Assembly (NCBI RefSeq): GCF_020103725.1
Contig: NZ_JAHXBG010000038.1
Span: 1 to 64,000, forward strand
Length of the DNA: 64,000 nt
Source: Hyalangium gracile
Lineage (GTDB): Bacteria > Myxococcota > Myxococcia > Myxococcales > Myxococcaceae
Direction of reading: 5' to 3'
The position numbers were made by a program, and so were the translations under genes. The notes beneath the pieces were generated by a model. The model made no database searches. It worked only from the letters and a program-made list of their open reading frames with translations, and had not been told where the DNA came from. Shown here in pieces: positions 12,261-41,557 of the stretch (its first letter is position 1; every line of letters begins with the position of its first letter).

Positions 12261-12266
12261 GGCACG

Positions 12267-22820: not shown

Positions 22821-22828
22821 GGGGGTCC

Positions 22829-25363: not shown

Positions 25364-25495
25364 GACGCCTCGCGGCGGCCCGGCAGCCCACGGCCCGGGG
25401 CGAGCGGCTCGCTCTTCTGCCTGGCGCGCTCCGGGGCATGGGTCGCTCCTCGGGCGCGGCTTCGAAGGCGACCCCTCGACAGGAGCGGAACTCGG

Positions 25496-26614
25496 ATGAA
25501 CACACTGGTCTTGACGGTCGGTCTGGTGCTCCACCTGGGGGAGACGGGGAGCCCGGCGGTACAGGTGTCTCCCTATGCGAGCGAGCTTCGGTTCTCCGGA
25601 CGGGTCGATCGCACCGACCCCGAGGGGCCTCGCTTCGCCTGGTCCGGGACTCGGTTCGAGCTGCGCTTCACCGGCACCTCGGTCCGGGTCCGGCTGCGCG
25701 ATCTGCCCAAGATTCCGGATCCGCACGGGAAGATCTGGCCCAACCGCTTCCAGGTGACGCTCGACGATCAGCCGCCCCGGCAGCGCATGGCCAGTGACAG
25801 CTCCGAGGTGCTCTTCGAGCAGTCAGGCCTGTCTCCGGGGCCCCACCGGCTGGAGGTCTACAAGCAGACCGAGGCATTCGTGGGAGAGGCCCAGCTGCTG
25901 GGGCTCGAGCTGGCCCCGGGGGCGCGGCTGCTCCCTCCGAGCCCCGCGCCGGCCAGGCGCATCGAGTTCTTCGGAGACTCCGTCACCGCCGGCTATGGCA
26001 ACGAAGGCCCGGACAGCAGCTGCCACTTCTCCGCCGACGTCCAGAACCACAGCGTGACCTACGGAGAGCTCACCGCGCGGGCGCTCGACGCCGAGTCCGT
26101 GACGGTCGCCTGGTCCGGCCGTGGAGTGATTCGCAACAACGATGCGCCGGAGGGGGCACCGGTGCTGCCCCAGCTCTGGGATCGCACCCTGCCTGCGCGC
26201 GACGGGGCCCGCTGGGACTTCACGTCGTGGAAGCCGGATGTCGTCGTGGTGAACCTGGGGGCCAACGACTTCGCGGGCGGCGATCCCGGGAGAGCGGCGT
26301 TCGAGGCGGGCTATGAGGCGTTCCTCTCCGGCATCCGAGCTCGTTACCCGGAGGCGCTCCTCGTGGTCTGCCTGGGCCCCACCATGAGCGACAGCTGGCC
26401 GGTGGGCGTGCAGGCCCGGACGAAGGCGCGGCGCTACCTGGAGTCCTCCGTCCAGCGCCTGCGGAAGCGGGGAGACTCCCGCGTCTTCTTCCTGGAGTTC
26501 GCGACACAGCGGCCCGTCGATGGCTACGGCTGCGACTACCACCCCAACCGGGTGACGCATCGGGCGATGGCGACGACGCTCACCGCCCGATTGCGCGAGC
26601 TGCTCGGCTGGTAG
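25496..26614 (+). CDS. SGNH/GDSL esterase, CE2-like acetylxylan esterase
   Basis: A 372-residue protein with a short signal-like N-terminus (NTLVLTVGLVLHLGETGSPA), an N-terminal jelly-roll domain (about 25-145, with RFAWSGTRFELRFTGTSVR) and a C-terminal SGNH hydrolase domain typical of carbohydrate esterase family 2. Block I is FFGDSVTAGYG with nucleophile Ser162, block III is NLGANDFAGG, and the Asp/His pair is in GCDYHPNRVTHRAM. CE2 enzymes remove O-acetyl groups from polysaccharides. It sits beside DUF3131 and acyltransferase genes, so it may trim acetyl groups from the same exopolysaccharide. The stop is two bases from the stop of the convergent acyltransferase. Confidence 0.88.
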   Translation: MNTLVLTVGLVLHLGETGSPAVQVSPYASELRFSGRVDRTDPEGPRFAWSGTRFELRFTGTSVRVRLRDLPKIPDPHGKIWPNRFQVTLDDQPPRQRMASDSSEVLFEQSGLSPGPHRLEVYKQTEAFVGEAQLLGLELAPGARLLPPSPAPARRIEFFGDSVTAGYGNEGPDSSCHFSADVQNHSVTYGELTARALDAESVTVAWSGRGVIRNNDAPEGAPVLPQLWDRTLPARDGARWDFTSWKPDVVVVNLGANDFAGGDPGRAAFEAGYEAFLSGIRARYPEALLVVCLGPTMSDSWPVGVQARTKARRYLESSVQRLRKRGDSRVFFLEFATQRPVDGYGCDYHPNRVTHRAMATTLTARLRELLGW

Positions 26615-26616
26615 CC

Positions 26617-27813
26617 TCAGGCCGAGGGTGCGGGGCTCTCGGCCGGGGTCTGCTGGCCCTGCGCTGGCGCCGGAGCCAGCCGCGGCTCGGCAGCCCGCTC
26701 GAGACCGATCAGGAAGGCCAGCGGCTTGAGCTTCCCGAACCCGTAGGCCAGGGCGAAGGAGCCCGGGACGACGAGGGCGAACTTCGAGAAGATCATCACC
26801 AGCGGGGAGAGGTCCCAGCGCTCGGTGAAGGCCACGATGTCGAAGAGATCGATCAGGATGGGGTGCAGCAGGTAGACACCGAAGGTGTACGGGGACAGCC
26901 TGCTGAAGAGGGGCGACCAGTTGAGGTGCGAGGCCGCCATGAAGGCGCCGAACACCAGGACGGGCATCAGGCGGTTGGCGTAGAACGCGCCGCCGTTCCG
27001 GTCGACCCAGCTGCCCGCCTTCGCCACGGAGAAGGCGTAGACCAGCGTCGTCAGGAAGGCCAGGCCCACCAGCAGGAGCAGCAGCCGCAAGAGGTCCCGG
27101 GACTCCTCGCGGTCCGCCCCCCGCTTCCACCAGGCATAGAGGCTGAACGCCTGCATGCCGTAGCCGAGGTAGCCGAGATCCTTCACCCCCTGCAGGGCCA
27201 TGACTCGCATGAACGGGTCGGTGATGGCGCCCCACATCCAGCGCTGCACGAAGTCCATGAGGTACAGCAGGGGAATGAGCAGCAGGCCCAGGATGGGGTA
27301 GCGCCGGGCCATCCGCATGCAGGGATACGCCAGGATGAGGATGAAGAGGGTGGGCAGGAAGTGCAGGTGGTACTGCGCCGAGCCCGTGAGCAGGTAGCCC
27401 ACCCACGAGCGCGCTGCCTGGAGCTCGTTCCAGATGGCCTCGCTGTAGCCAAAGGCCGAGGCCTTCAACAGACGGAAGAACGCGAAGAACAGCGTCCAGA
27501 TCAAGAAGGGGAGCAGCAGTCGCTTCGCCTGACCCAGGACGATGGAGCCGTAGGCCGTGTCCCCCTTCTCCAGCTTGTGGGCCAGCAGGAACAGGGAGAA
27601 CACCAGGAAGATCTCGGCGCTGGAGATCTCCGCGACGCTGCGGACGAACGCGGTGGCCAGGTTCATCAGCGGGTCGGGGCTCTTGAAGGGAGCTCCGCTG
27701 AAGTTCGTCGAGCTGTGAATCAGGACGATGCCTACGGCGGCCAGGATGCGATTGGCATCGAGCCAGACCATGCGGTGTGAGGGAGTCGCTGGAGGGGGAG
27801 AGGCGCTTGTCAT
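26617..27813 (-). CDS. Acyltransferase 3 family membrane protein
   Basis: A 398-residue integral membrane O-acyltransferase of the acyltransferase-3 (OafA/WecH-like) family. The first helix carries RMVWLDANRILAAVGIVLIHSSTNF with the conserved His, followed by AEIFLVFSLFLLAHKL; about ten helices end in FGVYLLHPILIDLF and ALAYGFGKL. The family transfers acyl groups to sugars of lipids or exopolysaccharides. I chose ATG at 27811-27813 with GGAG six bases ahead; an upstream in-frame ATG at 27840 lacks a comparable signal. It is convergent with the CE2-like esterase and divergent from the 28123 gene, and could supply acetyl groups that the esterase removes. Confidence 0.88.
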   Translation of the reverse strand: MTSASPPPATPSHRMVWLDANRILAAVGIVLIHSSTNFSGAPFKSPDPLMNLATAFVRSVAEISSAEIFLVFSLFLLAHKLEKGDTAYGSIVLGQAKRLLLPFLIWTLFFAFFRLLKASAFGYSEAIWNELQAARSWVGYLLTGSAQYHLHFLPTLFILILAYPCMRMARRYPILGLLLIPLLYLMDFVQRWMWGAITDPFMRVMALQGVKDLGYLGYGMQAFSLYAWWKRGADREESRDLLRLLLLLVGLAFLTTLVYAFSVAKAGSWVDRNGGAFYANRLMPVLVFGAFMAASHLNWSPLFSRLSPYTFGVYLLHPILIDLFDIVAFTERWDLSPLVMIFSKFALVVPGSFALAYGFGKLKPLAFLIGLERAAEPRLAPAPAQGQQTPAESPAPSA

Positions 27814-28122: not shown

Positions 28123-29523
28123 ATGAGCCGCCGCGCTCTCATCGTCGTGACGGTCCTCCTGTCGCTCGGCGGTGCCGCCGCGGAGGCCCAGTCCCTGCCG
28201 CTGCTCGCCCGGGCGCGGCAGCTGGCCTGCGCGCCAGAGGCGCAGGAGGCTCGCGAGGCGGTGCTCGCCCTGCGCTCGGCGGACACCCTGGCCCTGGGCT
28301 TTCCGGACGAGCAGCTCTCCTCCCAGGGACAGCGGACGCTGCACGCGAGCGTGCTGGACATCCTCCTGGCGGCGCTGGCGCTGGGCGTGCGCAGACACCC
28401 CGAGCTCGAGCCGGAGGTGGCGGCGCTGGTGAGCTCGTGGAACGCCTGCGCCCTCATCGACGAGGGAGAGGCCTACGACGTCGTCCGGGGAGAGGGCTCG
28501 CCGCGACGGCGGCGACTCGTTCTTCCCCTGCCGCTGGGAGGCGACGGGCTGCGCGCCTGGAAGCTGCTTCCCGAGCCCTCCGGTGACGGCCCCCAGGTCG
28601 CTGGCCAGGGCCCGGCCTCACTCGAGCAGCTGTGCGCGGACGGCATCGAGGGAACCTCCCTCTTCGACTTCGTGCCGGGAGTGCCCTCGGGGCCGATGCG
28701 TGTCGCGCCGCCGGCACCCGAGGTGGCTGCCGACTGCCTCGTGCCGCCTCCGCTGCTTCCTCTCCCCGCGTCCCCCAAGCCAGCGCCTCTCCCGGAGCCC
28801 TCCGCGCCACCTGCTCCTGAGCTTGCCAAGGAGGAGCCCCTCACCTCGAACCTCCTGCTGCCTCCGCCGGGCACGCCCGTCGACGCGGTGCCCCTCGTCG
28901 CGGCGCCAGGCGGCCATGGCTGGACCACCGGCGTGTCCTACTCCCAGGGGCTGCAGGGGCAGGGGTCGCTGAGCGCCATCGGCCTCTTCTCTCCCGTGCG
29001 TGGGCTCACCTTGAGGGTGGGCGCCGGCTTTGGTCTGCTGCGCGAGTTCCGACCCTCCCGTCAGGTGCAGCGCCTGACGCTCTCCTGGGGCGTGGGCTAC
29101 TCCGGGGGAAAGCCGGGGACCTGGTCCCTGCAGCTCGACAACTGGGGACCGCTGGATCCCACCGCTCCCAGGGACTTCCTCCGCGGCGTGGCCTTCGACA
29201 TCGGCTACCAGGCGAGGCTCCCCGCGCTGCTGGAGCGGGTGCTCTCCACAAGCTTCAAGCTCACCCTCCCGCGCGCAGGCTCGCCGTCCACCTCTGCCGT
29301 GTTCGTCGTGAGGCCGGCTCCCGGCGGCTTTGCCTCGGTGGCCCTGCGCTTCTCACCGCTGGAGCGCACGCCGCTCACCTGGTCCTACTCCGCGGGCTAT
29401 GCGCTGACCTGGAGCCCCCGCACCTTCTCCCTCACGTACGCCCACTGGGGAGCTACCCCCGCCTTCGAGTTCGATCCCCTGAAGGGAGGCGCGCTCACCG
29501 CCAGCGTCACCTGGAGCTTGTGA
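28123..29523 (+). CDS. Secreted protein with C-terminal outer-membrane-barrel-like region
   Basis: A 466-residue protein of no recognised family. A Sec signal peptide (MSRRALIVVTVLLSLGGAAA, likely cut after AEA) leads to a helical domain (about 25-130), a Pro/Ala-rich linker (about 205-265) and a C-terminal region of about 190 residues rich in alternating hydrophobic/polar strands (VGAGFGLLREF, LTLSWGVGYSGG, VALRFSPLERT, FSLTYAHWG), ending TASVTWSL, as in outer-membrane beta barrels. I therefore infer an outer-membrane protein. ATG at 28123 is chosen for the signal peptide; ribosome-binding signals are weak. It overlaps the convergent anti-sigma-type gene by 17 bases. Confidence 0.65.
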   Translation: MSRRALIVVTVLLSLGGAAAEAQSLPLLARARQLACAPEAQEAREAVLALRSADTLALGFPDEQLSSQGQRTLHASVLDILLAALALGVRRHPELEPEVAALVSSWNACALIDEGEAYDVVRGEGSPRRRRLVLPLPLGGDGLRAWKLLPEPSGDGPQVAGQGPASLEQLCADGIEGTSLFDFVPGVPSGPMRVAPPAPEVAADCLVPPPLLPLPASPKPAPLPEPSAPPAPELAKEEPLTSNLLLPPPGTPVDAVPLVAAPGGHGWTTGVSYSQGLQGQGSLSAIGLFSPVRGLTLRVGAGFGLLREFRPSRQVQRLTLSWGVGYSGGKPGTWSLQLDNWGPLDPTAPRDFLRGVAFDIGYQARLPALLERVLSTSFKLTLPRAGSPSTSAVFVVRPAPGGFASVALRFSPLERTPLTWSYSAGYALTWSPRTFSLTYAHWGATPAFEFDPLKGGALTASVTWSL

Positions 29524-29956
29524 GCGAGCGGCGCCGCACCAGCCGCATCCGGTTGCCGCTGGGGAGCGCCTCGTAGGCCACCTCGTCCATCAGCTCGCGC
29601 AGGATGTACAGCCCCCAGCCTCCCTCTGGCAGCGTGTCTCGAGCCTCCGGGTCCACAGCCGGCAGGGAAGGCCGGCTCAGCGCTCCGGCGGGAAGTGACG
29701 CGCCCTCATCGCGCAGCTCGAGCACCAGCCCGCTCGCATCCTTCCAGGCCTTCAGCTCGAAGGGCTGCCCCGGGCGCGAGCCGTACGCGTGCTCGATGAC
29801 GTTGTTCATGGCCTCCACCGCGCACAGCTCGATCTCGGCCATGGCCTCCGGGCCGCACCCGAGCGCCGAGAGCAGCGCGCGCAATGCCTCCGCCGCCTTC
29901 CTCACGGAGTCGGGCTCGCTCGTGAGGGCGAGGTGGAGCTGTGTGGGTGGCTGCAT
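29507..29956 (-). CDS. RsbW/SpoIIAB-like ATP-binding serine kinase (anti-sigma type)
   Basis: A 149-residue GHKL ATPase of the HATPase_c_2 type. It has N box EAMNNVIEHAYG, G1 box ELRDEGASL, and G2 loop GGWGLYILREL. These proteins phosphorylate STAS antagonists and sequester a partner such as a sigma factor. I chose ATG at 29954-29956, with GGAG seven bases ahead; an upstream ATG at 29974 is poorly spaced. It is divergent from the receiver-SpoIIE gene and close to the STAS gene, completing a partner-switching set. No sigma factor is adjacent, so the partner it controls could be a non-sigma protein. Confidence 0.85.
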   Translation of the reverse strand: MQPPTQLHLALTSEPDSVRKAAEALRALLSALGCGPEAMAEIELCAVEAMNNVIEHAYGSRPGQPFELKAWKDASGLVLELRDEGASLPAGALSRPSLPAVDPEARDTLPEGGWGLYILRELMDEVAYEALPSGNRMRLVRRRSLTSSR

Positions 29957-30079
29957 CTCAGGGCTCCAGTTCATCCTTCCACGACAAGCTCTGCGAGGAG
30001 CATGCCGGCCAGCGCTCACACGGCGTCCCGAATCTTGCATGGAGTGCCCTCGATCGGAATTTCCCGAGCAGGAGAGGTC

Positions 30080-31297
30080 ATGGACCTGGAGAGCGATGAT
30101 GTCCCTCGCGGCAACTCCCCCGAGGAAGCGTCAGGACCGAGGAGGGAGCCGCACCTCGCCCACCCGCAGCCCCGGACGGCCAGGCGTCCACGGCGCGTGC
30201 TGGTGGTGGATGATGCGCCCACCACCTGTGCCCTCTTCTCCGGCATGCTCGAGCGGGAGGGCATGGCCGTGAGCGTGGCCACCTCCGGCTACGAGGCGGT
30301 GGCCATGGCCCAGGCCGACCCTCCGGATCTGGTCCTGCTGGACTACATGATGCCGGACATCACGGGCATGGCCGTGGCGCGGCGCATGCGCGCGGACCCA
30401 CGTCTGCGCGAGGTGCCCATCATCCTCGTCACCGCCTCCTCGCTCGAGAGCACCATGGAGGAGGCTTTCGCCGCGGGGGCCGATGACTATCTCATCAAGC
30501 CCGTCGCGCGCCCCCTGCTGCTGGCGCGAGTCGAGGCGGCCATCCGCGCCCACGAGAGCCGCATCGCCGCGCGCAGCGCGAACGCGCTCCTCCAGGATCT
30601 GCAGGAGGCCCGGCGTGTACAGCAGTCGCTGCTGCCCAGGCTGCCGGTGGACTTCGAGGGCTGGCACATCAGCGGGGCGGTGGTGCCCTGCTCCCTGGTG
30701 GGAGGGGACATGGTGGACGTGATGCCCGGCATGGGCGGGGCGAAGGTGGTGTCCCTGGTGGACGTGGCGGGGCACGGCATGGCGGCGGCCCTGGTCGCGG
30801 CGCAGGTCTCCAGCGAGCTGCGCATGCTGGTGGAGACGCGGCCGCTCGACGAGGCGATGATGGCGCTCAGCTTCCACATGTTCCACCGTGGCACCGAGCG
30901 CTATGCGTGCGTGGCGGCCATCGAGATACGGGGCGGCAAGGTCACCGTCATCAACGCGGGCCTGCCTCCGGTGTGCGTCCTGCGGCGGGGAGCGCTCCGT
31001 GAGACCGTCTCGGCGAGCGCGGTGCCGCCAGGGCTCTTCGAGGACCCCACGGTCATCCCCACGCACCTGACGATCGATCCGGGGGACTGCGTGGTGATGC
31101 TCAGCGACGGGCTGACGGAGCCCTTCGGACGCGCGGACTCCGTGGCACCGGGGCTCACCGCGCTCGGGCTGCAGGGCATGAGGGGGCTCGCGCCGGCCCC
31201 GCCGGCCCTCGTCCAGCGGATCCTGGAGTGCGTGGGCGACTCGCAGCGAGACGACGCCACGCTGCTCGTGCTCGACCGCGTGCCCGGCGGGCAGTGA
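30080..31297 (+). CDS. Response regulator with SpoIIE/RsbU-type PP2C phosphatase
   Basis: A 405-residue protein. After a 38-residue charged leader comes a receiver domain (about 40-155: VLVVDDAPTT, phospho-acceptor Asp88 in VLLDYMMPD, the Thr of VTAS and Lys of LIKPV), then a coiled linker (ANALLQDLQEARRVQQSLLP) and a SpoIIE phosphatase domain with metal-binding VGGDMVDVM, VDVAGHGMAAALVAAQ and MLSDGLTEP and a terminal DDATLLVL. RsbU-like phosphatases dephosphorylate STAS proteins when activated. ATG at 30080 has GGAGAGG at 3 bases' distance. It is the upstream gene of the + strand run that reaches the STAS and polysaccharide genes, and probably acts on the STAS protein at 31526 in response to an unidentified histidine kinase. 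Confidence 0.92.
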   Translation: MDLESDDVPRGNSPEEASGPRREPHLAHPQPRTARRPRRVLVVDDAPTTCALFSGMLEREGMAVSVATSGYEAVAMAQADPPDLVLLDYMMPDITGMAVARRMRADPRLREVPIILVTASSLESTMEEAFAAGADDYLIKPVARPLLLARVEAAIRAHESRIAARSANALLQDLQEARRVQQSLLPRLPVDFEGWHISGAVVPCSLVGGDMVDVMPGMGGAKVVSLVDVAGHGMAAALVAAQVSSELRMLVETRPLDEAMMALSFHMFHRGTERYACVAAIEIRGGKVTVINAGLPPVCVLRRGALRETVSASAVPPGLFEDPTVIPTHLTIDPGDCVVMLSDGLTEPFGRADSVAPGLTALGLQGMRGLAPAPPALVQRILECVGDSQRDDATLLVLDRVPGGQ

Positions 31298-31525
31298 GGG
31301 CCCTGGCGGGGCCTGTGGTGGGACACGGCGGTGAACGCGTGGAGCGAGGGAATCCGCCACAGCCCAGCGCGGCGAGCGCGCGCACCCCCCAGCAGCACCC
31401 GCTCGGTGTGGCACGGCACGGACGTTGCTCAAGCTTCGAGGAGAACCCTGAGCCGAGAGGCGGACAGGGGCTGGCTGGGAGCCTCCACACGAAGGCCTGG
31501 CCCCATTCCCTGAACCGGAGATGCC

Positions 31526-31852
31526 ATGGACCTGAAGACCGAGTGGCTCGAGGACACACTCATCATCACCCCGCATCTGGACCGCCTGGATGCCCTGGCG
31601 GCCGTGGAGTTCCGCAAGGAGGTGCTGCAGCACGTCGCGGACGGCAAGCGCGTCGTGCTCAACATGATCTTCATCACCTTCGTGGACAGCTCCGGCCTGG
31701 CGAGCCTCGTCTCGGTGCTCAAGGGCCTGCCGCCCGGAGGCTCCCTGCGGCTCGTCCATGTGCACTCGAACGTCCGGGCGCTGCTGCAGCTCACCCGGCT
31801 GGTGAAGGTCTTCTCCACCTTCCCGAGCATCCGGGAAGCCATCGAGGCCTGA
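31526..31852 (+). CDS. STAS-domain anti-sigma-factor antagonist
   Basis: A 108-residue single-domain STAS protein (SpoIIAA/RsbV type). The signature TFVDSSGLASLV has Ser55 and Ser56 at the site phosphorylated by RsbW-type kinases. It lies 228 bases after the receiver-SpoIIE gene and only 12 bases before the GH2 gene, with the four following genes tightly linked. I infer that its phosphorylation is set by the ATPase at 29507 and the phosphatase at 30080 and that it controls the polysaccharide machinery, directly (as SypA/SypE do in Vibrio) or through a sigma factor. Confidence 0.92.
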   Translation: MDLKTEWLEDTLIITPHLDRLDALAAVEFRKEVLQHVADGKRVVLNMIFITFVDSSGLASLVSVLKGLPPGGSLRLVHVHSNVRALLQLTRLVKVFSTFPSIREAIEA

Positions 31853-31864
31853 AGGCGCGCGCCC

Positions 31865-33976
31865 ATGTCCCTGCTTCCGCTCACCGCCATGTGCTCCGCC
31901 CTGCTCGCCGCTGCCTCCGTGGGCCGCGCCGGAGCCCTGTCCCTGGAGGGCCGCTGGATCGCCAGTGAGCAGGAGCTCACGCAGGCGCCTCGCTCCCTTC
32001 CCGAGGGCAGGGAGATGCCGGTGCCCTCCAACTGGTACCGGCACGGCATCGATCGGGGCGGCGTGGTGTGGTTCTCCCGCGAGGTGCGCCTGCCCACGGA
32101 CGGGCACTTCCGGCTCGAGTTCGGCGGCGTGGATTATGAGGGGCAGGTCTTCTGGGATGGCCAGAAGGTGGGTGGGCACCGCGGGTACTTCGCACCCTTC
32201 TCGCTGAAGCTGCCACCAGGCCGGGCCGGCTCCCGTCACCTGCTGGCGGTGCGGGTGGACAGCCCCCTCGAGTCTCCGGAGGACTTCAGTCAGTTCAAGA
32301 CCCTCATCAAGGGCGTGCTTTCGCACCACGACACGCGCCCCGGAGGGGCGTGGTCGCCGCGAGGCCAGGAGGCGAATACGGGCGGTATCTGGGGGGCGGT
32401 GCGGCTCGTGCCCGTCCGGGCCGCGTGGATTGGCGACGCGCGGGTGCGCACGCTCGGGGCCAGCGCACGCAGGGCCCGCCTGCGCGTGGAGATCCAGCTC
32501 GACGAGGTGCTCGAGCCCGAGGCGCTCCTGGACTTCGTGCTCCGGGAGCCCGGGGGCACCGTGGTGGCGCGCGTGGAGCTCGGCAGGGTGGGCCAGCAGC
32601 GGCGCTTCGAGCGTGAGGTGTGGCTTGCCCGTCCCCGCCTGTGGTGGCCGCGCGAGCTGGGAGAGCCGGCGCTCCATGACCTCGAGGTACGCGTGCGAGG
32701 CCAGGCCGGAGAGGATCGGCTCGCCCGCCGCGTCGGGATCCGCACGGTGCGCCAGGACGCGGGCCGGCGCCTGATCGTCAATGGCGTCCCCCTCTTCGTG
32801 CGCGGCACCAACTACATCGGCAGCCTCTACCTCGCGGAGCTGGACCGGGGGATGGCGGCGAGAGACCTGGCGTTGATGGAAGCGGCCCACATCAACGCGG
32901 TGCGGGTGCACGCGCACCTCTCGTCGCCCGCCTTCTACGACGAGGCGGACGCGCGCGGAATGCTGGTGTGGCAGGACTTCCCGCTGCAGTGGGGCTACGA
33001 CGACAGCCCCGCCTTCGCCCAGGAGGCCCGCCGCCAGGTGGGGGAGATGCTCTCGGCGTTCGGGCACCACCCGTCCATCGTCTTCTGGACGGGACACAAC
33101 GAGGCGCCCTGGTCCTCGGAGTGGATGGTCTACAAGTACGGGGCGCGCTACAACCCGGACCAGAACCGCGAGCTGGCCCGGGCCCTGGCGGAGGCGCTGA
33201 GCGCCGACACGACCCGGCCCCACCAGGTGAACTCCCCGCCAGCCGAGCACGCCTGGGCGGGCTGGTACTTCGGCAGCTACCGCGAGTTCTCCCGGCCCGC
33301 CGCCCACCCGGTGCTCACCGAGTTCGGAGCCCAGGCGGTGCCCGCGCGGGCCACGCTGGAGACCTTCCTGCGCCCCGAGCAGCTGTGGCCCCTGGAGGGC
33401 AGCAACCTCGAGCTCTGGACGCACCACAACTTCCAGCTGCGCGAGCTGCGCGACCTGGCCCGGGTGCCGACGGGCGGCTCGGTGGACGAGCTCATCGAGA
33501 ACTCCCAGCGCTACCAGGCGCGGCTGCTGCAGTTCGCCGCGGAGCAGCTGCGCCGGCAGAAGTGGCAGCCGGTGACGGCGCTCTTCCAGTTCATGTTCGT
33601 CGAGCACTGGCCCTCCATGAACTGGGGGATGCTGGACCATCTCCGCCAGCCGAAGCAGGGGTACGCCGCGCTGGCGCGGGCCTACCAGCCGGTGCTGGCG
33701 GTGGCCTCCCGGCCGCGCAAGGACGGGCCGCTGCGGCTGAGCCTCGTGAACGACCGCCAGTCCGCGCTGCCGGGCCTCTCGCTGCGGGTGCGCTTCGGGG
33801 AGGACGACACGCGGACGCGCGAGCTGCGCGTGGACGTGCCCGCCAACGGAGTCCTGGAGCTCCCCGAGGAGCTGCCGCCGCCAGCGCCCACCGAGTCCCT
33901 TCGCCTCACCCTCATCGAAGCATCGGGTGCCGCCCTCTCCGACAACCACTACGCCCCTGGGTACTTCACGCCATGA
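31865..33976 (+). CDS. Glycoside hydrolase family 2 protein
   Basis: A 703-residue secreted protein: a signal peptide (LTAMCSALLAAASVGRAGA), a sugar-binding jelly roll (about 30-185), an immunoglobulin-like domain (about 190-295) and a TIM barrel (about 295-620). GH2 landmarks are GVPLFVRGTNYIG, AVRVHAHLSSPAFYDEAD, the acid/base Glu413 in FWTGHNEAPW and a likely nucleophile Glu486 in VLTEFGAQA. Known GH2 enzymes are beta-mannosidases, beta-galactosidases and glucuronidases; the linkage here is not deducible. Its stop overlaps the GT2 start (ATGA), so it is translated with the synthase and may edit or clear the polymer in the periplasm. Confidence 0.9.
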   Translation: MSLLPLTAMCSALLAAASVGRAGALSLEGRWIASEQELTQAPRSLPEGREMPVPSNWYRHGIDRGGVVWFSREVRLPTDGHFRLEFGGVDYEGQVFWDGQKVGGHRGYFAPFSLKLPPGRAGSRHLLAVRVDSPLESPEDFSQFKTLIKGVLSHHDTRPGGAWSPRGQEANTGGIWGAVRLVPVRAAWIGDARVRTLGASARRARLRVEIQLDEVLEPEALLDFVLREPGGTVVARVELGRVGQQRRFEREVWLARPRLWWPRELGEPALHDLEVRVRGQAGEDRLARRVGIRTVRQDAGRRLIVNGVPLFVRGTNYIGSLYLAELDRGMAARDLALMEAAHINAVRVHAHLSSPAFYDEADARGMLVWQDFPLQWGYDDSPAFAQEARRQVGEMLSAFGHHPSIVFWTGHNEAPWSSEWMVYKYGARYNPDQNRELARALAEALSADTTRPHQVNSPPAEHAWAGWYFGSYREFSRPAAHPVLTEFGAQAVPARATLETFLRPEQLWPLEGSNLELWTHHNFQLRELRDLARVPTGGSVDELIENSQRYQARLLQFAAEQLRRQKWQPVTALFQFMFVEHWPSMNWGMLDHLRQPKQGYAALARAYQPVLAVASRPRKDGPLRLSLVNDRQSALPGLSLRVRFGEDDTRTRELRVDVPANGVLELPEELPPPAPTESLRLTLIEASGAALSDNHYAPGYFTP

Positions 33977-35829
33977 CCATCGCCACCGTTCGACAACCAT
34001 CGCTCGAGTCGGACAGCGCTCCTCCCCGGGAGGAGGTCCGCTCCGGCTCCATCGAGGAACGCCAGCCTCCCGAGCCCATGCCCCACAGCGCGGCGCGCGA
34101 GGCGCTCTTCCAGTCGCTCGCGACGGCCTCCGTGGTCTTCGGGCTGTGGTACCTGGACTGGCGCTGGACCAGCTCGGTGAACTGGGAGGCGTGGTGGTTC
34201 TCCGTGCCCCTGCTGCTGGCCGAGACCCTGGCCTTCGTCGGCACCTGCCTCTTCATGCTCAACCTCTGGCGCACGGAGGACACGCCGCGGAGCCCGCCGC
34301 CGGCGACGGTCGCGGACATCCTGGAGAGGAAGCCCAAGCAGGATCGCCCGCTCATCGTCGACGTCTTCGTCGCCACGTACAGCGAGGATCCGGAGCTGGT
34401 CCGGCTGTCCCTGCGGGACGCCCGGAAGCTGCGCTACCCGCACCCCATCGACTTGCGCGTCCACGCGCTGGACGATGGGCGGCGCCCCGCCATGCGGGCC
34501 GTGGCCGAGCAGGAGGGGGTGGGCTACATCACCCGCGGGGACAACGTCGGCTTCAAGGCGGGCAACATCCGCAACGCGCTCGAGCAGACCCAGGGCGACC
34601 TGGTGGTCATCTGCGACGCGGACACGCGCCCCTTCCCGGAACTGCTCGAGGAGACGCTCGGCTACTTCCGCGATCCGCGGGTGGCGTGGGTGCAGACCCC
34701 GCAGTGGTTCTATGATCTGGACGAGGGAACGCCGCTGCCCGACTTGCTCTCGCGCTCCCTGCGGCTCGGCCGGGTGGGCCGCGCGCTGGGCCGCGGCGTC
34801 GAGGCGCTCATCGGCCCGGTGCGCGTGGGCGCGGACCTGTTCGGCAATGATCCGGCGCTCTTCTACGACGTCATCCAGCGGCGCCGGAACTGGTGCAACG
34901 CCTCGTTCTGCTGCGGCGCGGGCAGCGTGCACCGCCGTGACGCGGTGATGGAGGCGGCGCTCCGGGCCTACGGCGAGCAGGTGGCCAGCGCGGTGGAGCA
35001 GATCACCCAGGAGGTAAAGGACACGCGGCTGCGCGCCGATCTCTCCGAGGTCATGTCCGGCGAGGCCGCGCGCGAGTTCGAGCTCACCCCCTACAAGTTC
35101 CACGTGTCGGAGGACATCTACACGAGCATCGTGCTGCACTCGGACTGCCAGCGGCGGTGGAAGTCCGTCTACCACCCGCGCGTGCTCACCCGGATGCTCT
35201 CCCCGCAGGACCTGCTGGCGTGGACCATCCAGCGCTTCAAGTACGCGGGGGGCACGCTGGACATCTTCTGGAACGACAACCCGCTGCGCCGCGCGGGGCT
35301 CAGCATCTGGCAGAAGCTGATGTACGGGACGACCATCTACTCGTACCTCGCGCCGCTGTGGACGGTGGTCTTCCTGCTCTGGCCCATCCTCTACCTCTTC
35401 ACCGGCCTGAGCCCCGTGGAGGCCTACGACACGGACTTCTACATGCACCTGGTGCCCTTCGTGGTGCTGAACAAGGTGGCCTTCGCCGTGGGCACCTGGG
35501 GCGTGCCCGCCTGGCGCGGCGAGCAGTACTACCTGTCGTTCTTCTGGCTCAACATCAAGGCCATCGCGGACGTGATGAGGGGCAGGCCCATCAAGTTCCA
35601 CGTCACGCCGAAGACGCGGCAGGCGGGCACCTTCCTGTCGCTCGTCTGGCCCCACGTCGCGCTCATCGCGCTGACGCTGCTGGGCCTGGTGGTGATGGGC
35701 GTGCGCGTCTTCGTCCTCCGCACGGAGGGCCTGGACGCCTACCTGGCCAACGCCTTCTGGGGGCTCAACAACGTCCTGGCGCTGTCCGCGATCGTGTTCG
35801 CGGCGCTGCGCAAGGAGAAGGGGAACTGA
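33973..35829 (+). CDS. BcsA-like processive glycosyltransferase family 2
   Basis: A 618-residue inner-membrane synthase. Two N-terminal helices (about 52-95) lead to a GT2 domain with the D,D,D,Q motifs: DDG at Asp167-Asp168, DAD at 215-217, the catalytic Asp in SEDIYTS (Asp381), and QRFKY at 420-424, a variant of QxxRW that retains a basic Lys for Arg. A His/Cys-rich loop RNWCNASFCCGAGSV precedes the TED-like motif as in cellulose synthases. Five to six C-terminal helices form the channel; no PilZ domain is present. ATG at 33973 overlaps the GH2 stop, and the DUF3131 gene follows after one base. It polymerises an unknown sugar nucleotide. Confidence 0.92.
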   Translation: MTIATVRQPSLESDSAPPREEVRSGSIEERQPPEPMPHSAAREALFQSLATASVVFGLWYLDWRWTSSVNWEAWWFSVPLLLAETLAFVGTCLFMLNLWRTEDTPRSPPPATVADILERKPKQDRPLIVDVFVATYSEDPELVRLSLRDARKLRYPHPIDLRVHALDDGRRPAMRAVAEQEGVGYITRGDNVGFKAGNIRNALEQTQGDLVVICDADTRPFPELLEETLGYFRDPRVAWVQTPQWFYDLDEGTPLPDLLSRSLRLGRVGRALGRGVEALIGPVRVGADLFGNDPALFYDVIQRRRNWCNASFCCGAGSVHRRDAVMEAALRAYGEQVASAVEQITQEVKDTRLRADLSEVMSGEAAREFELTPYKFHVSEDIYTSIVLHSDCQRRWKSVYHPRVLTRMLSPQDLLAWTIQRFKYAGGTLDIFWNDNPLRRAGLSIWQKLMYGTTIYSYLAPLWTVVFLLWPILYLFTGLSPVEAYDTDFYMHLVPFVVLNKVAFAVGTWGVPAWRGEQYYLSFFWLNIKAIADVMRGRPIKFHVTPKTRQAGTFLSLVWPHVALIALTLLGLVVMGVRVFVLRTEGLDAYLANAFWGLNNVLALSAIVFAALRKEKGN

Positions 35830-35830
35830 G

Positions 35831-37177
35831 ATGCGACACTCGAGAGGGTTCATCGCCGCGCGCTCGCACGCGGCTTTTCTCATCGGGCTGATGGCGGCGC
35901 TGGGAGTCATCTTCTTCCTGCGCTACCGCATGCCCACCGTCCGGCCGGGAGTGGTGGACTACGCGCGGCTGCTCGAGGATCGGCCCGAGGCCGCGCCGCT
36001 GCATCCGACGGGGGTGCCGCTCTCCGAGCAGGAGCGCGCGTGGGCGCGGATTGCCTGGACCTACTTCGAGCGCAACTACCAGCCGAAGACGGGCCTGGTG
36101 AACTCGGTGGATGCGTACCCCTCCACCACGCTCTGGGACCTGGGCTCGTACATGATGGCGCTGCTGGCCGCCGAGGACCTGAAGCTCATCGGCGGGCCGG
36201 AGTTCGAGTCGCGCATGAACGCGCTGCTGGCCTCGCTCGCCGCGCTGCCGCTCGTGGACGGCCGGCTCCCCAACAAGGCCTACCACACCGCCACGCTCGC
36301 CATGGTGGACTACGACAACTCCGAGTCCCGGAATGGCGTGGGCTGGTCCGCGCTGGACGTGGCGCGCTTCGCGGTGCCCGCCACGCTGATCACCTGGCGC
36401 CACCCTCGCTACACGCCCGCGGTGCGCGCCGTCCTCCAGGCCTGGGGGCTGGAAGACATGGCGCGGGACGGGCAGATGATGGGCAGCCACCGCTCCAGGG
36501 AGGACGGGGGGCTCGTGCTCGTCCAGGAGGGGCGCTTCGGCTACGAGCAGTACGGCGCCAAGTCGCTCTTCCTGCTCGGGTTGGATGTGAGCCGGGCCCT
36601 GCGCTACGAGGTGGGCGTGGACGTGATGGAGGTGGCGGGGCAGCGCGTCGCCTACGACGCGCGGCTGCCGGAGGATCATGCGGGCACGCAGAACGCCGTG
36701 CTCTCGGAGCCCTACGTGCTGGAGGCGCTCGAGTTCGGCCTCAACTCCACCACGCTGCCCCTGGCGCGCGCCGTCTTCCACGCGCAGGCGGGGCGCTTCG
36801 AGGACACGGGCATCCTCACCGCGGTGTCCGAGGACAACATCGATCGGCCTCCGTACTTCGTCTACAACAGCGTCCTCAACGGCAGGCGCGAGTGGGCGGC
36901 CTTCGCTCCGGATGGCAGCGACGCCTCCGCGCACCGCAGCCTCTCGCTGAAGGCGGCGTTCGGCTGGGCCTACATCTTCGCCGGTGACTACTCCGGGCGC
37001 CTGCTCCAGGGGGTGGCGGCGCTGAACGATCCGCAGAAGGGCTGGTACTCCGGGCGCTACGAGGCGGACGGGAAGGTGAACACCGCCATCACCGCCAACA
37101 CCAACGCCCTGGTGCTCGAGGCACTCTGGTACCGGGCCCGGGGCCCCCTGCTGCCGGCGGCGAGGGCACTGCGATGA
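35831..37177 (+). CDS. Membrane-anchored DUF3131 protein
   Basis: A 448-residue protein with one N-terminal helix (SHAAFLIGLMAALGVIFFL) and a DUF3131 domain (about 65-440). It shares with the 23597 paralogue the motifs AWTYFERNYQPKTGLVN, YPSTTLWDLGS, RLPNKAYHTAT, GWSALDVAR, QEGRFGYEQYGAK, SEDNIDRPPYFVYNS, and ITANTNALVLEALWY. The likely fold is an alpha/alpha toroid facing the periplasm, a plausible polysaccharide lyase or hydrolase or a scaffold for the synthase. It begins one base after the GT2 stop and ends in an ATGA overlap with the OpgC-like gene, so it is firmly part of the synthase operon. Confidence 0.92.
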   Translation: MRHSRGFIAARSHAAFLIGLMAALGVIFFLRYRMPTVRPGVVDYARLLEDRPEAAPLHPTGVPLSEQERAWARIAWTYFERNYQPKTGLVNSVDAYPSTTLWDLGSYMMALLAAEDLKLIGGPEFESRMNALLASLAALPLVDGRLPNKAYHTATLAMVDYDNSESRNGVGWSALDVARFAVPATLITWRHPRYTPAVRAVLQAWGLEDMARDGQMMGSHRSREDGGLVLVQEGRFGYEQYGAKSLFLLGLDVSRALRYEVGVDVMEVAGQRVAYDARLPEDHAGTQNAVLSEPYVLEALEFGLNSTTLPLARAVFHAQAGRFEDTGILTAVSEDNIDRPPYFVYNSVLNGRREWAAFAPDGSDASAHRSLSLKAAFGWAYIFAGDYSGRLLQGVAALNDPQKGWYSGRYEADGKVNTAITANTNALVLEALWYRARGPLLPAARALR

Positions 37178-38406
37178 GCCTTCGAGTGGTTGAGCCCATC
37201 ATGCCCGCGACGGAGGCGCCCCCTCCACGCGCGAGCTGGGCCTACGTCGCAGAGCCCGGCGAGAGGGATTCGCGGGTGGACTTCCTGCGTGGCGTGGCGA
37301 TGGTCAGCGTCGTCATCGTGCACGTGGAGTTCTTCTCCCTGTTCAACTTCGTCGCCTGGGAGAGGGTGGGTGGGGTGAGCTCCGCCGAGTTCTTCGTCGT
37401 CCTCTCGGGCTTCGTGCTCGGCGAGGTGTCCCGCCGGCGCGTGGCACGAGAGGGGCTGGGAGGCGCCTGCTGGAAGCTGTGGGAGCGCGCGGCCCAGCTC
37501 TACGGCGTCCTGCTGGGCGTCGCCTTGCTGGGGGCGCTGGTGGCGAGCATGCCCTACTGGGACTCCAGCGCCCTCACCACCTTCGTGGACCGGGGCTCCG
37601 GCACCGTCTACCCCCTCTACCCGGGGACGGGTGCGAGCCTGCAGCAGTGGGTCGGCCGGTGGCTCCTGCTGCGCATGGGACCGTACCAGGTGCAGATCCT
37701 CGGCCTCTACGCCGCCCTCTTCCTCGTGGCCCCCGCGGCCCTCTACCTGCTGTCCGCGGGCAGGACGCGCTGGCTGCTGGTGCTCTCGTGGGTGGGCTAC
37801 TGCTCCCGGTGGGTGGTGCCCTCCAAGCCCACGGGAGCGCTGTTCGAGCACGCCTTCCCGCTGCTCACCTGGCAGCTGCTCTTCTGCCATGGGCTGGCGG
37901 CGGGCTATCACCGGCAGAAGCTTCTGGCCCTCTACGCGCGCTACCGCACGCCCGTGCTGGGCGCGGCGGTGCTGCTCGGCGCGGCCTTCTTCTTCTTCGC
38001 CCAGAACAACCCCAATCCCCTGGTCCCCGAGTACGCGCGTCTGTCCCTCATTCCCCGGGGCAGCTTCTATCGCCTCTACTGGCAGTTCTTCTCGAAGAGC
38101 GAGCTGGGCCTGCTGCGCATCCTCAACGTCGCGGTGCTCCTGGTGCTGGGCGGCGAGCTGCTCACCCGCGCCTGGGGGCCGCTGCGGGCCGCGCTCGGAG
38201 GCTTCTTCATCCCCCTGGGCCAGGCCTCGCTCTACGTCTTCGCGCTGCACGTCCCGGTGGTGTTCATCGTCTCGAACCTCATCCCCTTCGGCTACGCCGC
38301 CTCGGGGGGCGCGTTGCTCCTCAACACGCTGGGGCACCTGGGGTGCCTGGCCGTGCTCTGGCTGCTGGTGCGCTACCGCTTCCTCTACCGCTGGATCCCT
38401 CACTGA
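37174..38406 (+). CDS. OpgC-like glucan acyltransferase
   Basis: A 410-residue membrane protein of the OpgC family (acyltransferase-3 clan). It has DSRVDFLRGVAMVSVVIVHVEFFS with the conserved Arg and His, SSAEFFVVLSGFVLGEV, and about ten helices ending in LGQASLYVFALHVPVVF. OpgC succinylates osmoregulated periplasmic glucans in proteobacteria, so succinylation or another acylation of the polymer made by this operon is plausible. Its ATG overlaps the DUF3131 stop. The downstream H-NOX gene begins 17 bases later with GAGGTGAC before its ATG, so both could be on one transcript. Confidence 0.9.
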   Translation: MSLRVVEPIMPATEAPPPRASWAYVAEPGERDSRVDFLRGVAMVSVVIVHVEFFSLFNFVAWERVGGVSSAEFFVVLSGFVLGEVSRRRVAREGLGGACWKLWERAAQLYGVLLGVALLGALVASMPYWDSSALTTFVDRGSGTVYPLYPGTGASLQQWVGRWLLLRMGPYQVQILGLYAALFLVAPAALYLLSAGRTRWLLVLSWVGYCSRWVVPSKPTGALFEHAFPLLTWQLLFCHGLAAGYHRQKLLALYARYRTPVLGAAVLLGAAFFFFAQNNPNPLVPEYARLSLIPRGSFYRLYWQFFSKSELGLLRILNVAVLLVLGGELLTRAWGPLRAALGGFFIPLGQASLYVFALHVPVVFIVSNLIPFGYAASGGALLLNTLGHLGCLAVLWLLVRYRFLYRWIPH

Positions 38407-38423: not shown

Positions 38424-38981
38424 ATGTACGGACTGGTGAATCGCGCAATCGAGGAGATGGTGTGTGGCAGTCAGGGGGAGGAGACCTGGGAGCGCATCAA
38501 GTGCGAGGCCGGGGTCGACACGGACGTCTTCATCGGCAACCAGGGCTATGACGACGCCATCACCTACCGGCTGGTGGGCGCGGCCAGCCAGGTGCTCGGG
38601 CTCCCGCCGGAGCGCATCCTCGAGGCCTTCGGTGAGCACTGGGTGCTGAAGACCGCGCGGGATGGGTATGGCGAGCTGCTGACCGCGGGGGGCTCCTCCT
38701 TGAGCGAGTTCCTCCAGAACCTCCCGAGCCTCCACGCCCGCATCAACCTCATGTTCCCCCACCTGACCCCGCCCTCGTTCTCGTGCACGAACGTCACGGC
38801 GGAGTCGATGGACTTCCACTATCGCTCGAAGCGGCAGGGGCTGGCCCCGTTCATGGTGGGGCTGCTCCGGGGGCTCGGCAAGCTGTTCGACACGGAGGTC
38901 TACATAGAGCACATCGAGGCGCGGAGCGCGGGGGCGGACCATGACGTCTACCACCTGCGGTGGAGAAGGACGCAGCCGTGA
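38424..38981 (+). CDS. H-NOX heme nitric-oxide sensor
   Basis: A 185-residue heme-NO-binding (HNOB) protein. Proximal heme ligand His104 lies in NLPSLHARINLMFP, and the heme-propionate motif YxSxR is Tyr133-Arg-Ser135-Lys-Arg137. The distal position that carries Tyr140 in the O2-binding Thermoanaerobacter protein aligns with Pro142 here (my alignment), so it is predicted to bind NO and reject O2. Stand-alone H-NOX proteins regulate a partner kinase or cyclase; the partner is the next gene, which starts inside this gene's end (GTGA overlap). It follows the polysaccharide operon by 17 bases. Confidence 0.95.
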   Translation: MYGLVNRAIEEMVCGSQGEETWERIKCEAGVDTDVFIGNQGYDDAITYRLVGAASQVLGLPPERILEAFGEHWVLKTARDGYGELLTAGGSSLSEFLQNLPSLHARINLMFPHLTPPSFSCTNVTAESMDFHYRSKRQGLAPFMVGLLRGLGKLFDTEVYIEHIEARSAGADHDVYHLRWRRTQP

Positions 38982-41557
38982 GCCCGGGGCTCCACCTCGG
39001 GCTCGCCCCGGAGCAGTTCGCCCAGGCCTTCCCGTTTCACGTGGCCTTCGACGAACGGCTCGTCGTGGTGCAGACCGGCCCCTCCCTGCACAAACTCTGT
39101 CCCGGGCTGCGGGCAGGCTCGCGGCTCGGGGAGCACCTCCGGCTCCGAGGCGATGCGCCGACGCTCAGCTTCGAGCTCCTCCGCTCCGTCTCCTCGCGCC
39201 TGGTGGTCATGGAGACGCTGTGCGAGCAGGTGCCGATACGCGGTCAGCTCCTCTTGTCCGAGGCTGGAGATTGCATCGTGTTCCTCTGCTCACCGTGGCT
39301 GACGGAGCCCGCCTCCATGCGCAAGCTGGGGCTCGGGGTGGGGGACTTCGCGCTGCATGATCCGGTGGTGGACCTGCTCCACCTCATGCAGTCACAGACG
39401 ATGTCGCTGGCGGACGCGAACCGCCTGGCGGAGAAGCTGACCGCCCAGCGCGCGGAGCTCCGCTCGGCGAACGCCCGCCTCGCCACCCGGTACTCCGTGA
39501 CGCGCGCGCTGGCACAGGCGGCCCGCATCGAGGATGCGGCCTCCAGCATCCTCGCCAGCGTGTGCGAGCTGGGCGCATGGGACATGGCCGTCATCTGGCT
39601 GCGCGAGGAGGAGCCGCGCTCCTTCTCGTTGGTGAAAGGTCCCCTGGCCGGGACGCCGGGCGCCTCCGCCTTCGAGGCCTACCTTCGCGGCACCCCCCCG
39701 GGGCTGGAGGTGGACCCCGCGGGGAGCGCCCTGCGCACCGGCGCGGCCGACTGGGCGGAGGATCTGAACCGACTCTTGAGCTCCAGCCGCTCCCGCTCCG
39801 CCGTGAAGGCGGGGTTCCGGGGCGCCTGCGCCTTCCCCCTGCCTGGCGTTCATGGGAGCGCGGGCCTCTGCGAGCTGTATGCCGCGCAGCCTCGAGTCCG
39901 CGACGCGCGCCTGCTGGCGGCGCTCGAGGAGATCGGCGCCTGCATCGGGCAGTTCATTGACAGGTACCGCACGGAGCAGGAGCTGCGAGAGTCGAAGAAG
40001 GCCGCCGAGGCCGCGACGGTGGCCAAGAGCCAGTTCCTGGCGCGCATGAGCCATGAGATCCGCACGCCCATCAACGGCGTCATCGGCATGATCGAGCTGG
40101 CCTTGCGCTCGCCCCTCACGGCGAGCCAGCGCGAGCACCTCGAGACGGCCCAGTCCTCCGCCGAGCTGCTGCTCCAGCTCGTCAGTGACGTGCTCGACTT
40201 CTCGAAGATCGAGGCGGGTCAGCTCCACCTCGCGGAGTCACGCTTCTCGCTGCGGGAGTGTCTCGAGCGTCCCCTCCGGGGACTCGCGGCCAGGGCTCGC
40301 GACAAGGGCCTGCGCTTCACGGTGGAGCTGCCGGAGGATCTCCCGGACGCGGTGAGGGGAGATCCCCTCCGGCTCTCGCAGGTGCTCATCAACCTGGTGG
40401 GCAACGCGGTGAAGTTCACCCACCAGGGAGAGGTCCGCGTGGAGACGCGCGTCCAGGAGCGCTCCGCCGGCTTCTGCCAGCTCGCCCTCGCCGTGAGTGA
40501 CACCGGCATCGGCATCGACCCCGTGAAGCAGCGGCACATCTTCGAGGCCTTCGCCCAGGCGGACGCCGAGACGGCGCAGTTCTATGGCGGTACGGGCCTG
40601 GGGCTGGCGATCTGCCAGCAGCTCGTGCAGATGATGGGAGGGACGATCTCGGTGGAGAGCAGCCCCGGGAGGGGCAGCTGCTTCCTCTTCACGGCGCGGC
40701 TGGGGATCGACGAGAGCGCGAGCAGCGCCGCGGCGCCGGAGCCTCCACGCCACCGGGGGCGAGCCCAGCGGGGGCTGCGCATCCTGGTGGTCGAGGACAA
40801 CGTGGTGAACCAGCTGGTGACCCGAGGGCTCCTCGAGCTGGAGGGCCACGTGGTGGAGACCGTGGACCGGGGAGAGGCGGCCCTGGCGCGCACCCGGAGC
40901 ACGCGCTTCGACCTCATCCTGATGGACATCCAGATGCCGGAGCTGGACGGGCTCCAGGTGACGCGACGGATCCGCGAGGAGGAGGGATGGACCGGTGCGC
41001 CGCGGACGCCCATCGTGGGCCTGACGGCGCAGTCCGTCGTGGGAGACCGCGAGAAGGGGCTCGAGGCGGGCATGGACGAGTACCTGGCCAAGCCGGTTCG
41101 CGGACGCCAGCTCGCGGAGGCGATCGACCGTGTCCTCGGCCAGCGCCAGGCGGACAGTGGCCCTCCGGCTCCCGAGGCGCCCCGCAGCCTGGATCGGGCG
41201 GCGCTGGAGGAGCTGGTCGGCGGAGAGTCGGTGCTCCTGGCTCGGATCGTGAGCGTGTTCCTCCGGTACGGGCCGGAGATGCGGGATGCGGTGCTGGCGG
41301 CCCTCTCCGGGGAGGACTCGAAGGAGCTGGTGGCCGCGGCGCACAAGCTGAAGGGCTCCCTGGGCGATCTCGCGGCGCGGTCCGCCTTCGCGGTGTGTGG
41401 CCGCATCGAGCTGCTGGCCCGGCGCGGGGAGCTCACGGCGGCCCGCGCGGAGCGGGAGCCGCTGGAGCGAGAGCTCGCCCAGCTCTTCAACGAGCTGCGG
41501 GAGCTCGAGGCGCAGCTGTCCCTCGGCGGACGGGATGCCATGGGTCGTGGGCACTGA
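38978..41557 (+). CDS. HNOBA-domain hybrid histidine kinase with REC and HPT
   Basis: An 859-residue cytosolic hybrid kinase. In order: an H-NOX-associated domain (about 1-145, FPFHVAFDERLVVVQTGPSL), a coiled coil, a GAF-like domain (about 165-325), HisKA with His359 in MSHEIRTPINGV, HATPase (NLVGNAVKFTH, DTGIGID, GGTGLGLAI), a receiver with Asp650 in LILMDIQMPELDG, and a C-terminal HPT domain with His789 in AHKLKGSLGDL. The GTG at 38978 overlaps the H-NOX stop and has GGAGAAGG ahead; GTG at 38960 is an in-frame alternative. NO-bound H-NOX should inhibit or switch autophosphorylation. The complete relay ends in HPT, so an external response regulator elsewhere (or the receiver-SpoIIE protein) is expected as output. 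Confidence 0.95.
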   Translation: MSPGLHLGLAPEQFAQAFPFHVAFDERLVVVQTGPSLHKLCPGLRAGSRLGEHLRLRGDAPTLSFELLRSVSSRLVVMETLCEQVPIRGQLLLSEAGDCIVFLCSPWLTEPASMRKLGLGVGDFALHDPVVDLLHLMQSQTMSLADANRLAEKLTAQRAELRSANARLATRYSVTRALAQAARIEDAASSILASVCELGAWDMAVIWLREEEPRSFSLVKGPLAGTPGASAFEAYLRGTPPGLEVDPAGSALRTGAADWAEDLNRLLSSSRSRSAVKAGFRGACAFPLPGVHGSAGLCELYAAQPRVRDARLLAALEEIGACIGQFIDRYRTEQELRESKKAAEAATVAKSQFLARMSHEIRTPINGVIGMIELALRSPLTASQREHLETAQSSAELLLQLVSDVLDFSKIEAGQLHLAESRFSLRECLERPLRGLAARARDKGLRFTVELPEDLPDAVRGDPLRLSQVLINLVGNAVKFTHQGEVRVETRVQERSAGFCQLALAVSDTGIGIDPVKQRHIFEAFAQADAETAQFYGGTGLGLAICQQLVQMMGGTISVESSPGRGSCFLFTARLGIDESASSAAAPEPPRHRGRAQRGLRILVVEDNVVNQLVTRGLLELEGHVVETVDRGEAALARTRSTRFDLILMDIQMPELDGLQVTRRIREEEGWTGAPRTPIVGLTAQSVVGDREKGLEAGMDEYLAKPVRGRQLAEAIDRVLGQRQADSGPPAPEAPRSLDRAALEELVGGESVLLARIVSVFLRYGPEMRDAVLAALSGEDSKELVAAAHKLKGSLGDLAARSAFAVCGRIELLARRGELTAARAEREPLERELAQLFNELRELEAQLSLGGRDAMGRGH

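Follow-up and report, generated by a model that had tools for sequence, protein, structure and literature searches.

A predicted partner switch associated with a distinct clade of BcsA-like glycosyltransferases in Hyalangium gracile and other bacteria

The stretch of DNA analysed here, hereafter called the window, comprises 64,000 nucleotides from Hyalangium gracile (contig NZ_JAHXBG010000038.1, positions 1 to 64,000) and encodes a BcsA-like family 2 glycosyltransferase (GT2) next to a single-domain STAS protein, an RsbW-type kinase and a SpoIIE phosphatase. We conclude that these genes probably belong to a synthase-dependent polysaccharide locus in which a partner switch, itself driven by a gas-sensing phosphorelay, governs the GT2. 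This reading starts from direct observations, namely the gene architecture and its conservation, the traits of the GT2 clade, the association statistics and the fold modelled for the DUF3131 protein, and it suggests a previously undescribed control over the timing of outer polysaccharide production.

We scored 65 loci of the GT2 clade and 19 BcsA-like control loci by six-frame profile searches, counting as informative those with enough flanking sequence (57 and 14 loci, respectively) and as nearby all genes at a distance of at most 9 kb from the GT2 gene. A STAS gene was found near the clade GT2 in 56 of the 57 informative loci, which represent both Myxococcota and Pseudomonadota, as compared with 0/14 of the controls. 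RsbW and SpoIIE were each present in 43/57 clade loci, and RsbW was seen in 0/14 controls. After dereplication at 85% GT2 identity, the STAS counts were 37/38 versus 0/13 (Fisher p = 3e-11). These counts show that the pairing of STAS and GT2 is not a local accident.

The window GT2 contains the D,D,D motifs and a QRFKY motif, and Pfam identified no PilZ domain in it. Its best match in a profile search against solved structures in the PDB was BcsA, with which it shares the catalytic core, but the clade is separated from BcsA in the tree by a long stem with a support of 100/100. The QxxKY motif was present in 63 of 63 scored clade proteins, whereas BcsA has QxxRW. Two cytosolic segments are longer in the clade than in BcsA (median 69 versus 43 and 70 versus 24 residues), while the C-terminus is about 170 residues shorter, that of BcsA being of PilZ length; STAS, moreover, is lacking at the BcsA-like loci (0/14). 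The candidate explanation that this is an ordinary BcsA was rejected on the basis of motif spacing, tree and neighbourhood.

The genes of the locus in the window are as follows:
23597..25363, + strand: DUF3131 protein b, with a signal peptide-like start and a Pro/Ala-rich tail (Pfam PF11329, 9e-132); retained in H. versicolor
25496..26614, + strand: CE2-type SGNH carbohydrate esterase (Pfam CE2_N 4e-25, Lipase_GDSL_2 9e-20; NCBIfam AcxyGlmanDactase below cut-off)
26617..27771, - strand: acyltransferase of the Acyl_transf_3 type (Pfam PF01757, 4e-25)
28123..29523, + strand: exported putative barrel protein with an N-terminal domain, a Pro-rich linker and a C-terminal region resembling an outer-membrane barrel by eye; no match in a Pfam search
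29507..29956, - strand: RsbW-type serine kinase (HATPase_c_2, 8e-29), with N-box EAMNNVIEHAYG and GGWGLYI
30080..31297, + strand: receiver-SpoIIE phosphatase (Response_reg 1e-28, SpoIIE 2e-24)
31526..31852, + strand: single-domain STAS protein (Pfam STAS 1e-13; alignments)
31865..33976, + strand: GH2 glycosidase (Pfam; alignment with homologues from the loci)
33973..35829, + strand: GT2 synthase, BcsA-like, of the distinct clade (Pfam; PDB profile, tree and motif spacing)
35831..37177, + strand: DUF3131 protein a, with an N-terminal transmembrane helix (PF11329, 9e-132; AlphaFold model)
37174..38406, + strand: OpgC-type acyl/succinyltransferase (OpgC_C, 1e-44)
38424..38981, + strand: H-NOX haem protein (HNOB 6e-50; PDB 4iae, 1e-63)
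38978..41557, + strand: hybrid kinase of the architecture HNOBA-HisKA-HATPase-Rec-HPt (Pfam), with motifs FLARMSHEIRTP and AHKLKGS

Pfam recovered each of the domains that a preliminary description of this DNA had named (kinase, receiver (Rec)-SpoIIE, STAS, GH2, GT2, DUF3131 and OpgC), and the tight spacing reported there was confirmed: STAS and GH2 are 12 bp apart, GH2 and GT2 overlap in an ATGA (GT2 ATG at 33973), 1 bp separates GT2 from DUF3131 a, and DUF3131 a and OpgC overlap in a second ATGA. The run then continues across 17 bp to H-NOX and a GTGA overlap to the hybrid kinase, ending at 41557. The extent proposed at first, 29507-38406, thus includes the core genes but omits H-NOX and the hybrid kinase as well as the left part of the locus at 23597-29523. 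A consensus terminator scan of the STAS-GH2 interval found none, so at this level the strong terminator that had been named as counter-evidence is lacking. As to the claim that the switch is built into the polysaccharide operon, the coupling of STAS, GH2, GT2, DUF3131 and OpgC stands, whereas the RsbW gene is divergent from Rec-SpoIIE on the minus strand, and therefore outside its transcript, and 228 bp separate the end of Rec-SpoIIE (31297) from the start of STAS (31526).

Loci with comparable gene orders, a search for which had been put forward as a check, were found in Myxococcota, alphaproteobacteria and gammaproteobacteria. Run against 84,980 genomes, the GT2 alignment yielded 44 loci, mainly from alphaproteobacteria, and a broader sampling placed the clade in 15/398 Pseudomonadota and 11/195 Myxococcota genomes; E. 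coli genomes, searched with the GT2 at the DNA level, gave no match. Pseudooceanicola and Paracoccus contain a single run of Rec-SpoIIE, STAS, RsbW, HPt (either within a hybrid kinase or as a separate gene), DUF3131, acyltransferase, GT2 and DUF3131. In Microvirga, Devosia and others, the GT2 is accompanied by a convergent RsbW-STAS-SpoIIE set, in which SpoIIE is HAMP-linked where checked, and on plasmids of Pantoea, Salmonella and Chimaeribacter an RsbW-STAS-RecSpoIIE-OpgC block faces a block of GT2, three DUF3131 genes, globin, hybrid kinase and GH2. In the Anaeromyxobacter-type loci, whose order is STAS-GT2-DUF3131-DUF3131-GH16, the STAS gene abuts GT2 or lies very close to it, and neither RsbW nor SpoIIE is present in the vicinity. 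Since these loci keep STAS-GT2 alone of the switch, the comparison of gene contents shows STAS as the switch component most tightly tied to the synthase. In Anaeromyxobacter, the open frame for the second DUF3131 protein (G058, G056, L039, L060) also matches the profile built for the putative barrel protein in the window, which suggests a natural fusion. Strong homologues of the barrel protein were found in G102 and in loci L115-L117. In L115, two PAP2-like membrane proteins, one of them a weak match, precede STAS-GT2 (537-1872), and L113, L116 and L117 contain genes of similar size at this position.

All three sequence features of an RsbU/V/W-type partner switch are present in the window: a STAS protein with Ser after Asp, a GHKL kinase and a PPM/SpoIIE phosphatase with its metal-binding Asp. 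Although the matches of the kinase to the NCBIfam RsbW/SpoIIAB models were weak and below cut-off, its N-box is intact. Rec-SpoIIE has the receiver motif DYMMPD and the phosphatase motifs GGDMVD, DVAGHG, SDGLTE and DDATL, and alignments place the candidate phospho-acceptor Ser of STAS in FVDSSGLA. Read from the sequence, the active-site motifs of RsbW, receiver, SpoIIE, STAS, hybrid kinase and HPt are all intact. With these motifs, Rec-SpoIIE would dephosphorylate phosphorylated STAS at the first Ser of FVDSSGLA, with RsbW acting in opposition.

The founding role of RsbW, STAS and SpoIIE proteins is the control of sigma factors. A classical switch, in which RsbW is an anti-sigma factor for a sigma factor encoded elsewhere and STAS is its antagonist, would put the polysaccharide genes under transcriptional control, and genome G000 does contain many sigma-70 family genes. 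We regard this explanation as unlikely. We recognised no sigma gene within the locus, and in 17 clade-bearing genomes no gene scored above the cut-off of the SigB/F/G profile TIGR02980, which does not cover other sigma types. Furthermore, STAS stays next to GT2 in loci without RsbW, often with a degenerate phosphosite. The phospho-Ser was retained in 46/46 loci with RsbW nearby as compared with 5/15 without RsbW, counting the variant ANSSG as Ser kept; the difference in losses (0/46 versus 10/15) has a p-value of 3e-8, or 1e-5 after dereplication. The replacing residues were G, A, C, M, R or T and never D or E, as expected if unphosphorylated STAS is the active form. Because loci without RsbW keep STAS beside GT2 yet often lose the phospho-Ser, the data point to unphosphorylated STAS as the effector on the synthase side.

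Fusion proteins argue in the same direction and likewise speak against the sigma factor explanation. In a Phaeobacter locus (L057, 8486-9976), STAS forms the N-terminal part of a sugar nucleotidyltransferase that has hexapeptide repeats and is encoded in the GT2 operon, upstream of GT2, and further such fusions occur in L119 (G266; 11481-12980) and L120 (11181-12674), the assignment being confirmed by Pfam in L057 and L119. None of the three loci has RsbW or SpoIIE nearby. Because the fusions adjoin GT2, they suggest that STAS is a member of the synthase assembly, and in these loci its partner could be the sugar-nucleotide enzyme instead of GT2. Separately, the Vibrio-type loci (L070, 7307-8431; L109-L111) contain a stand-alone sugar nucleotidyltransferase gene between STAS and RsbW, as judged by sequence in L070. 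The STAS gene of these loci was missed by gene calling and recovered by the six-frame search, and its supposed absence was therefore rejected. Variation in the switch was also seen in Microvirga loci (L030, L032, L035-L038, L040, L055), where a second STAS (FIDSTGLG) and a further gene, in L030 a PIG-L-type deacetylase, directly follow GT2. In Pantoea stewartii DC283 (L068, 2150-6380), the switch looks broken because an IS66 element separates SpoIIE from a shortened STAS and because OpgC is split.

STAS might instead act through a diguanylate cyclase, as in HsbA-HsbD of Pseudomonas and BgrV-BgrR of Sinorhizobium, with cyclic diguanosine monophosphate (c-di-GMP) activating the synthase. Direct precedents favour this possibility, including a partner switch over mixed-linkage beta-glucan in S. 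meliloti as cited in PMC8457831, but we consider it as improbable as sigma factor control. A GGDEF-like motif was found near only 2/65 clade loci and nowhere within 9 kb of the window GT2, which is devoid of the BcsA C-terminal domain. The BgsA candidate of S. meliloti, which we selected from pSymB by similarity and not by annotation, is only 27% identical, carries an additional domain at its C-terminus and falls with BcsA in the tree, outside the clade. Least probable is that RsbW itself touches and inhibits the synthase and STAS merely titrates RsbW, a scheme that parallels anti-sigma logic and accords with RsbW in 43/57 informative loci, but RsbW is absent from about one quarter of the loci while STAS is retained in all but one.

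We return to the reading of a STAS-controlled synthase. The active, unphosphorylated STAS would act on the synthase complex and promote its activity, most likely by contacting GT2 through the cytosolic insertions that BcsA lacks, so replacing the PilZ/c-di-GMP input. The signal upstream may be read from the sensor genes. The window H-NOX has the proximal His in LHAR and a YRSKR motif, and it aligns over its full length with Alr2278. The latter is an NO (nitric oxide)-binding H-NOX protein. A second H-NOX with a hybrid kinase is present in the Silicimonas locus L049, while in enterobacterial loci (Pantoea, Salmonella, Chimaeribacter) the H-NOX position is held by a globin weakly similar to PA3967; no globin was found in the P. 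agglomerans locus. That two unrelated haem folds occupy one position suggests a diatomic gas as the signal. In L108, the gene preceding the kinase (190 aa) was considered as a further H-NOX and rejected, as it encodes a molybdopterin-domain protein.

The sensor type varies across the loci (H-NOX, globin, PAS, CHASE3), whereas HPt recurs, in Paracoccus and Sphingobium as a stand-alone gene. HPt was present in 13/15 loci with Rec-type SpoIIE and in 0/12 loci with Rec-less SpoIIE, which is HAMP-linked where checked (p = 6e-6). From what is known of the families, we propose that the ligand of H-NOX is a diatomic gas, most likely NO since the closest solved relative of this H-NOX is the NO-binding Alr2278, and that ligand binding alters the activity of the HNOBA hybrid kinase. 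Phosphate would then pass from His to Asp to HPt and on to the receiver of Rec-SpoIIE, a path that the co-occurrence of Rec and HPt supports. The most specific version of this scheme, in which STAS is a dedicated regulatory subunit of an unrecognised GT2 clade and binds its insertions instead of relying on PilZ/c-di-GMP, with haem sensors setting its phosphorylation via the HPt-to-Rec-SpoIIE relay, is put forward tentatively, at somewhat less than even confidence.

The polymer may be approached through DUF3131. A single-sequence AlphaFold run gave a predicted local distance difference test (pLDDT) score of 34 and was discarded, whereas an alignment of 21 sequences gave a model with pLDDT 88.6. 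The model of DUF3131 a superimposed on 8wy1, the cyclization domain of cyclic beta-1,2-glucan synthase, with Z = 35.0 and a root mean square deviation of 2.8 over 350 residues, and on endo-beta-1,2-glucanases (GH144) with Z of about 31; the sequence match to 8wy1 is weak (1e-5). In the model, DUF3131 is a GH144/GH189-like (alpha/alpha)6 fold. The acidic residues E233, E239, D276, E301 and E334 are invariant. It shares this fold with GH144 and with the GH189 domain of cyclic beta-1,2-glucan synthase (Z 28-35) but has only about 13% sequence identity to them, and here it is a separate transmembrane-anchored or exported protein beside GT2. In the literature searched, DUF3131 as a keyword returned no more than three passing mentions. 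Over the extent of the copies compared between loci, GH2 retains the acid/base motif HNE and the nucleophile motif TEFG; the Anaeromyxobacter and Sphingobium loci carry GH16, not GH2. Homologues of the acyltransferase lie just upstream of GT2 in Pseudooceanicola and Paracoccus. The product of the locus is most likely a substituted beta-glucan, which DUF3131 and GH2 would trim or rearrange and which OpgC and the acyltransferase would acylate.

Several observations weigh against the proposed control of the synthase. With RsbW on its own strand and Rec-SpoIIE 228 bp from STAS, co-expression of switch and synthase genes is not guaranteed. H. versicolor retains the full order from DUF3131 b to the hybrid kinase without H-NOX and GH2 at this place, so neither of these is essential. 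Locus L114 (G404) combines GT2 and DUF3131 with Rec-SpoIIE and a stand-alone HPt, yet neither STAS nor RsbW was detected within 9 kb of its GT2. The distances among GT2 proteins correlate with those among STAS, RsbW and SpoIIE (r = 0.81-0.90; 0/2000 permutations), which speaks for the reading as a sign of co-inheritance, though not of contact. The p-values given above are optimistic, since the loci are related by descent and part of the training set of the HPt profile came from them. Of the control over exopolysaccharide proposed in the preliminary description, the dedication of the switch to the synthase is borne out by conservation across two phyla and tree-like co-inheritance, and the post-translational step is plausible as far as sequence can indicate.

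Outside the locus, the region at 21456-23392 encodes a lipoprotein-like protein that ends in an AHH nuclease domain and, after it, an Imm11 immunity protein. The two probably form a toxin-immunity pair, and H. versicolor has two unrelated genes in their place.

Several single-domain STAS proteins, SypA included, steer biofilm formation through targets still listed as unknown in reviews. In the present case, a single STAS type is linked to a single synthase clade over two phyla, with natural variants in which the kinase is lost, the phosphosite is lost or a fusion is gained, and because such variants exist the question of the STAS target is directly testable. If true, our scheme would connect the sensing of NO or oxygen with polysaccharide output independently of c-di-GMP, and it would assign a function to DUF3131 and to an accessory block of Klebsiella so far described by its gene list alone. 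In the literature searched, mostly outside subscription journals, we found no paper that ties partner switching to this type of synthase.

Among known systems, SypE of Vibrio is a single protein that combines kinase, receiver and phosphatase. As in SypE/SypA, a receiver-linked phosphatase and an RsbW-like kinase are predicted to act on a single-domain STAS protein, but here kinase and phosphatase are separate genes, the switch is located beside a BcsA-like GT2 and DUF3131, and the locus itself encodes the kinase/HPt input. The comparison with SypA/SypE drawn earlier therefore holds as a functional analogy but does not extend to the genes, SypE being one protein and the syp locus not being built around this GT2 clade. 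In V. fischeri, unphosphorylated SypA promotes biofilm and its target is no known sigma factor (PMC8256260, PMC4517449), and NO acts on the biofilm through HnoX according to a title cited in PMC11112999. STAS-type proteins that steer enzymes are exemplified by HsbA-HsbD, BgrV-BgrR and SiaC-SiaD (PMC8457831), and all4160 of Anabaena is a glycosyltransferase with an N-terminal STAS domain (PMC8256260). The BgrUWV-BgrR/BgsBA system of S. meliloti is similar in placing a STAS partner switch over a BcsA-like beta-glucan synthase (cited in PMC8457831) but acts via the diguanylate cyclase BgrR, and no such gene is typical of the window-type loci. Finally, the enzyme set, which the preliminary description did not recognise from any described system, is not confined to this genome, and a similar gene list is printed for K. 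pneumoniae in a population-genomics paper (PMC12974863). Accessory block 3b, given in that paper as a gene list without a mechanism, matches the enterobacterial loci when compared by gene list alone, and seems to be a locus of this type.

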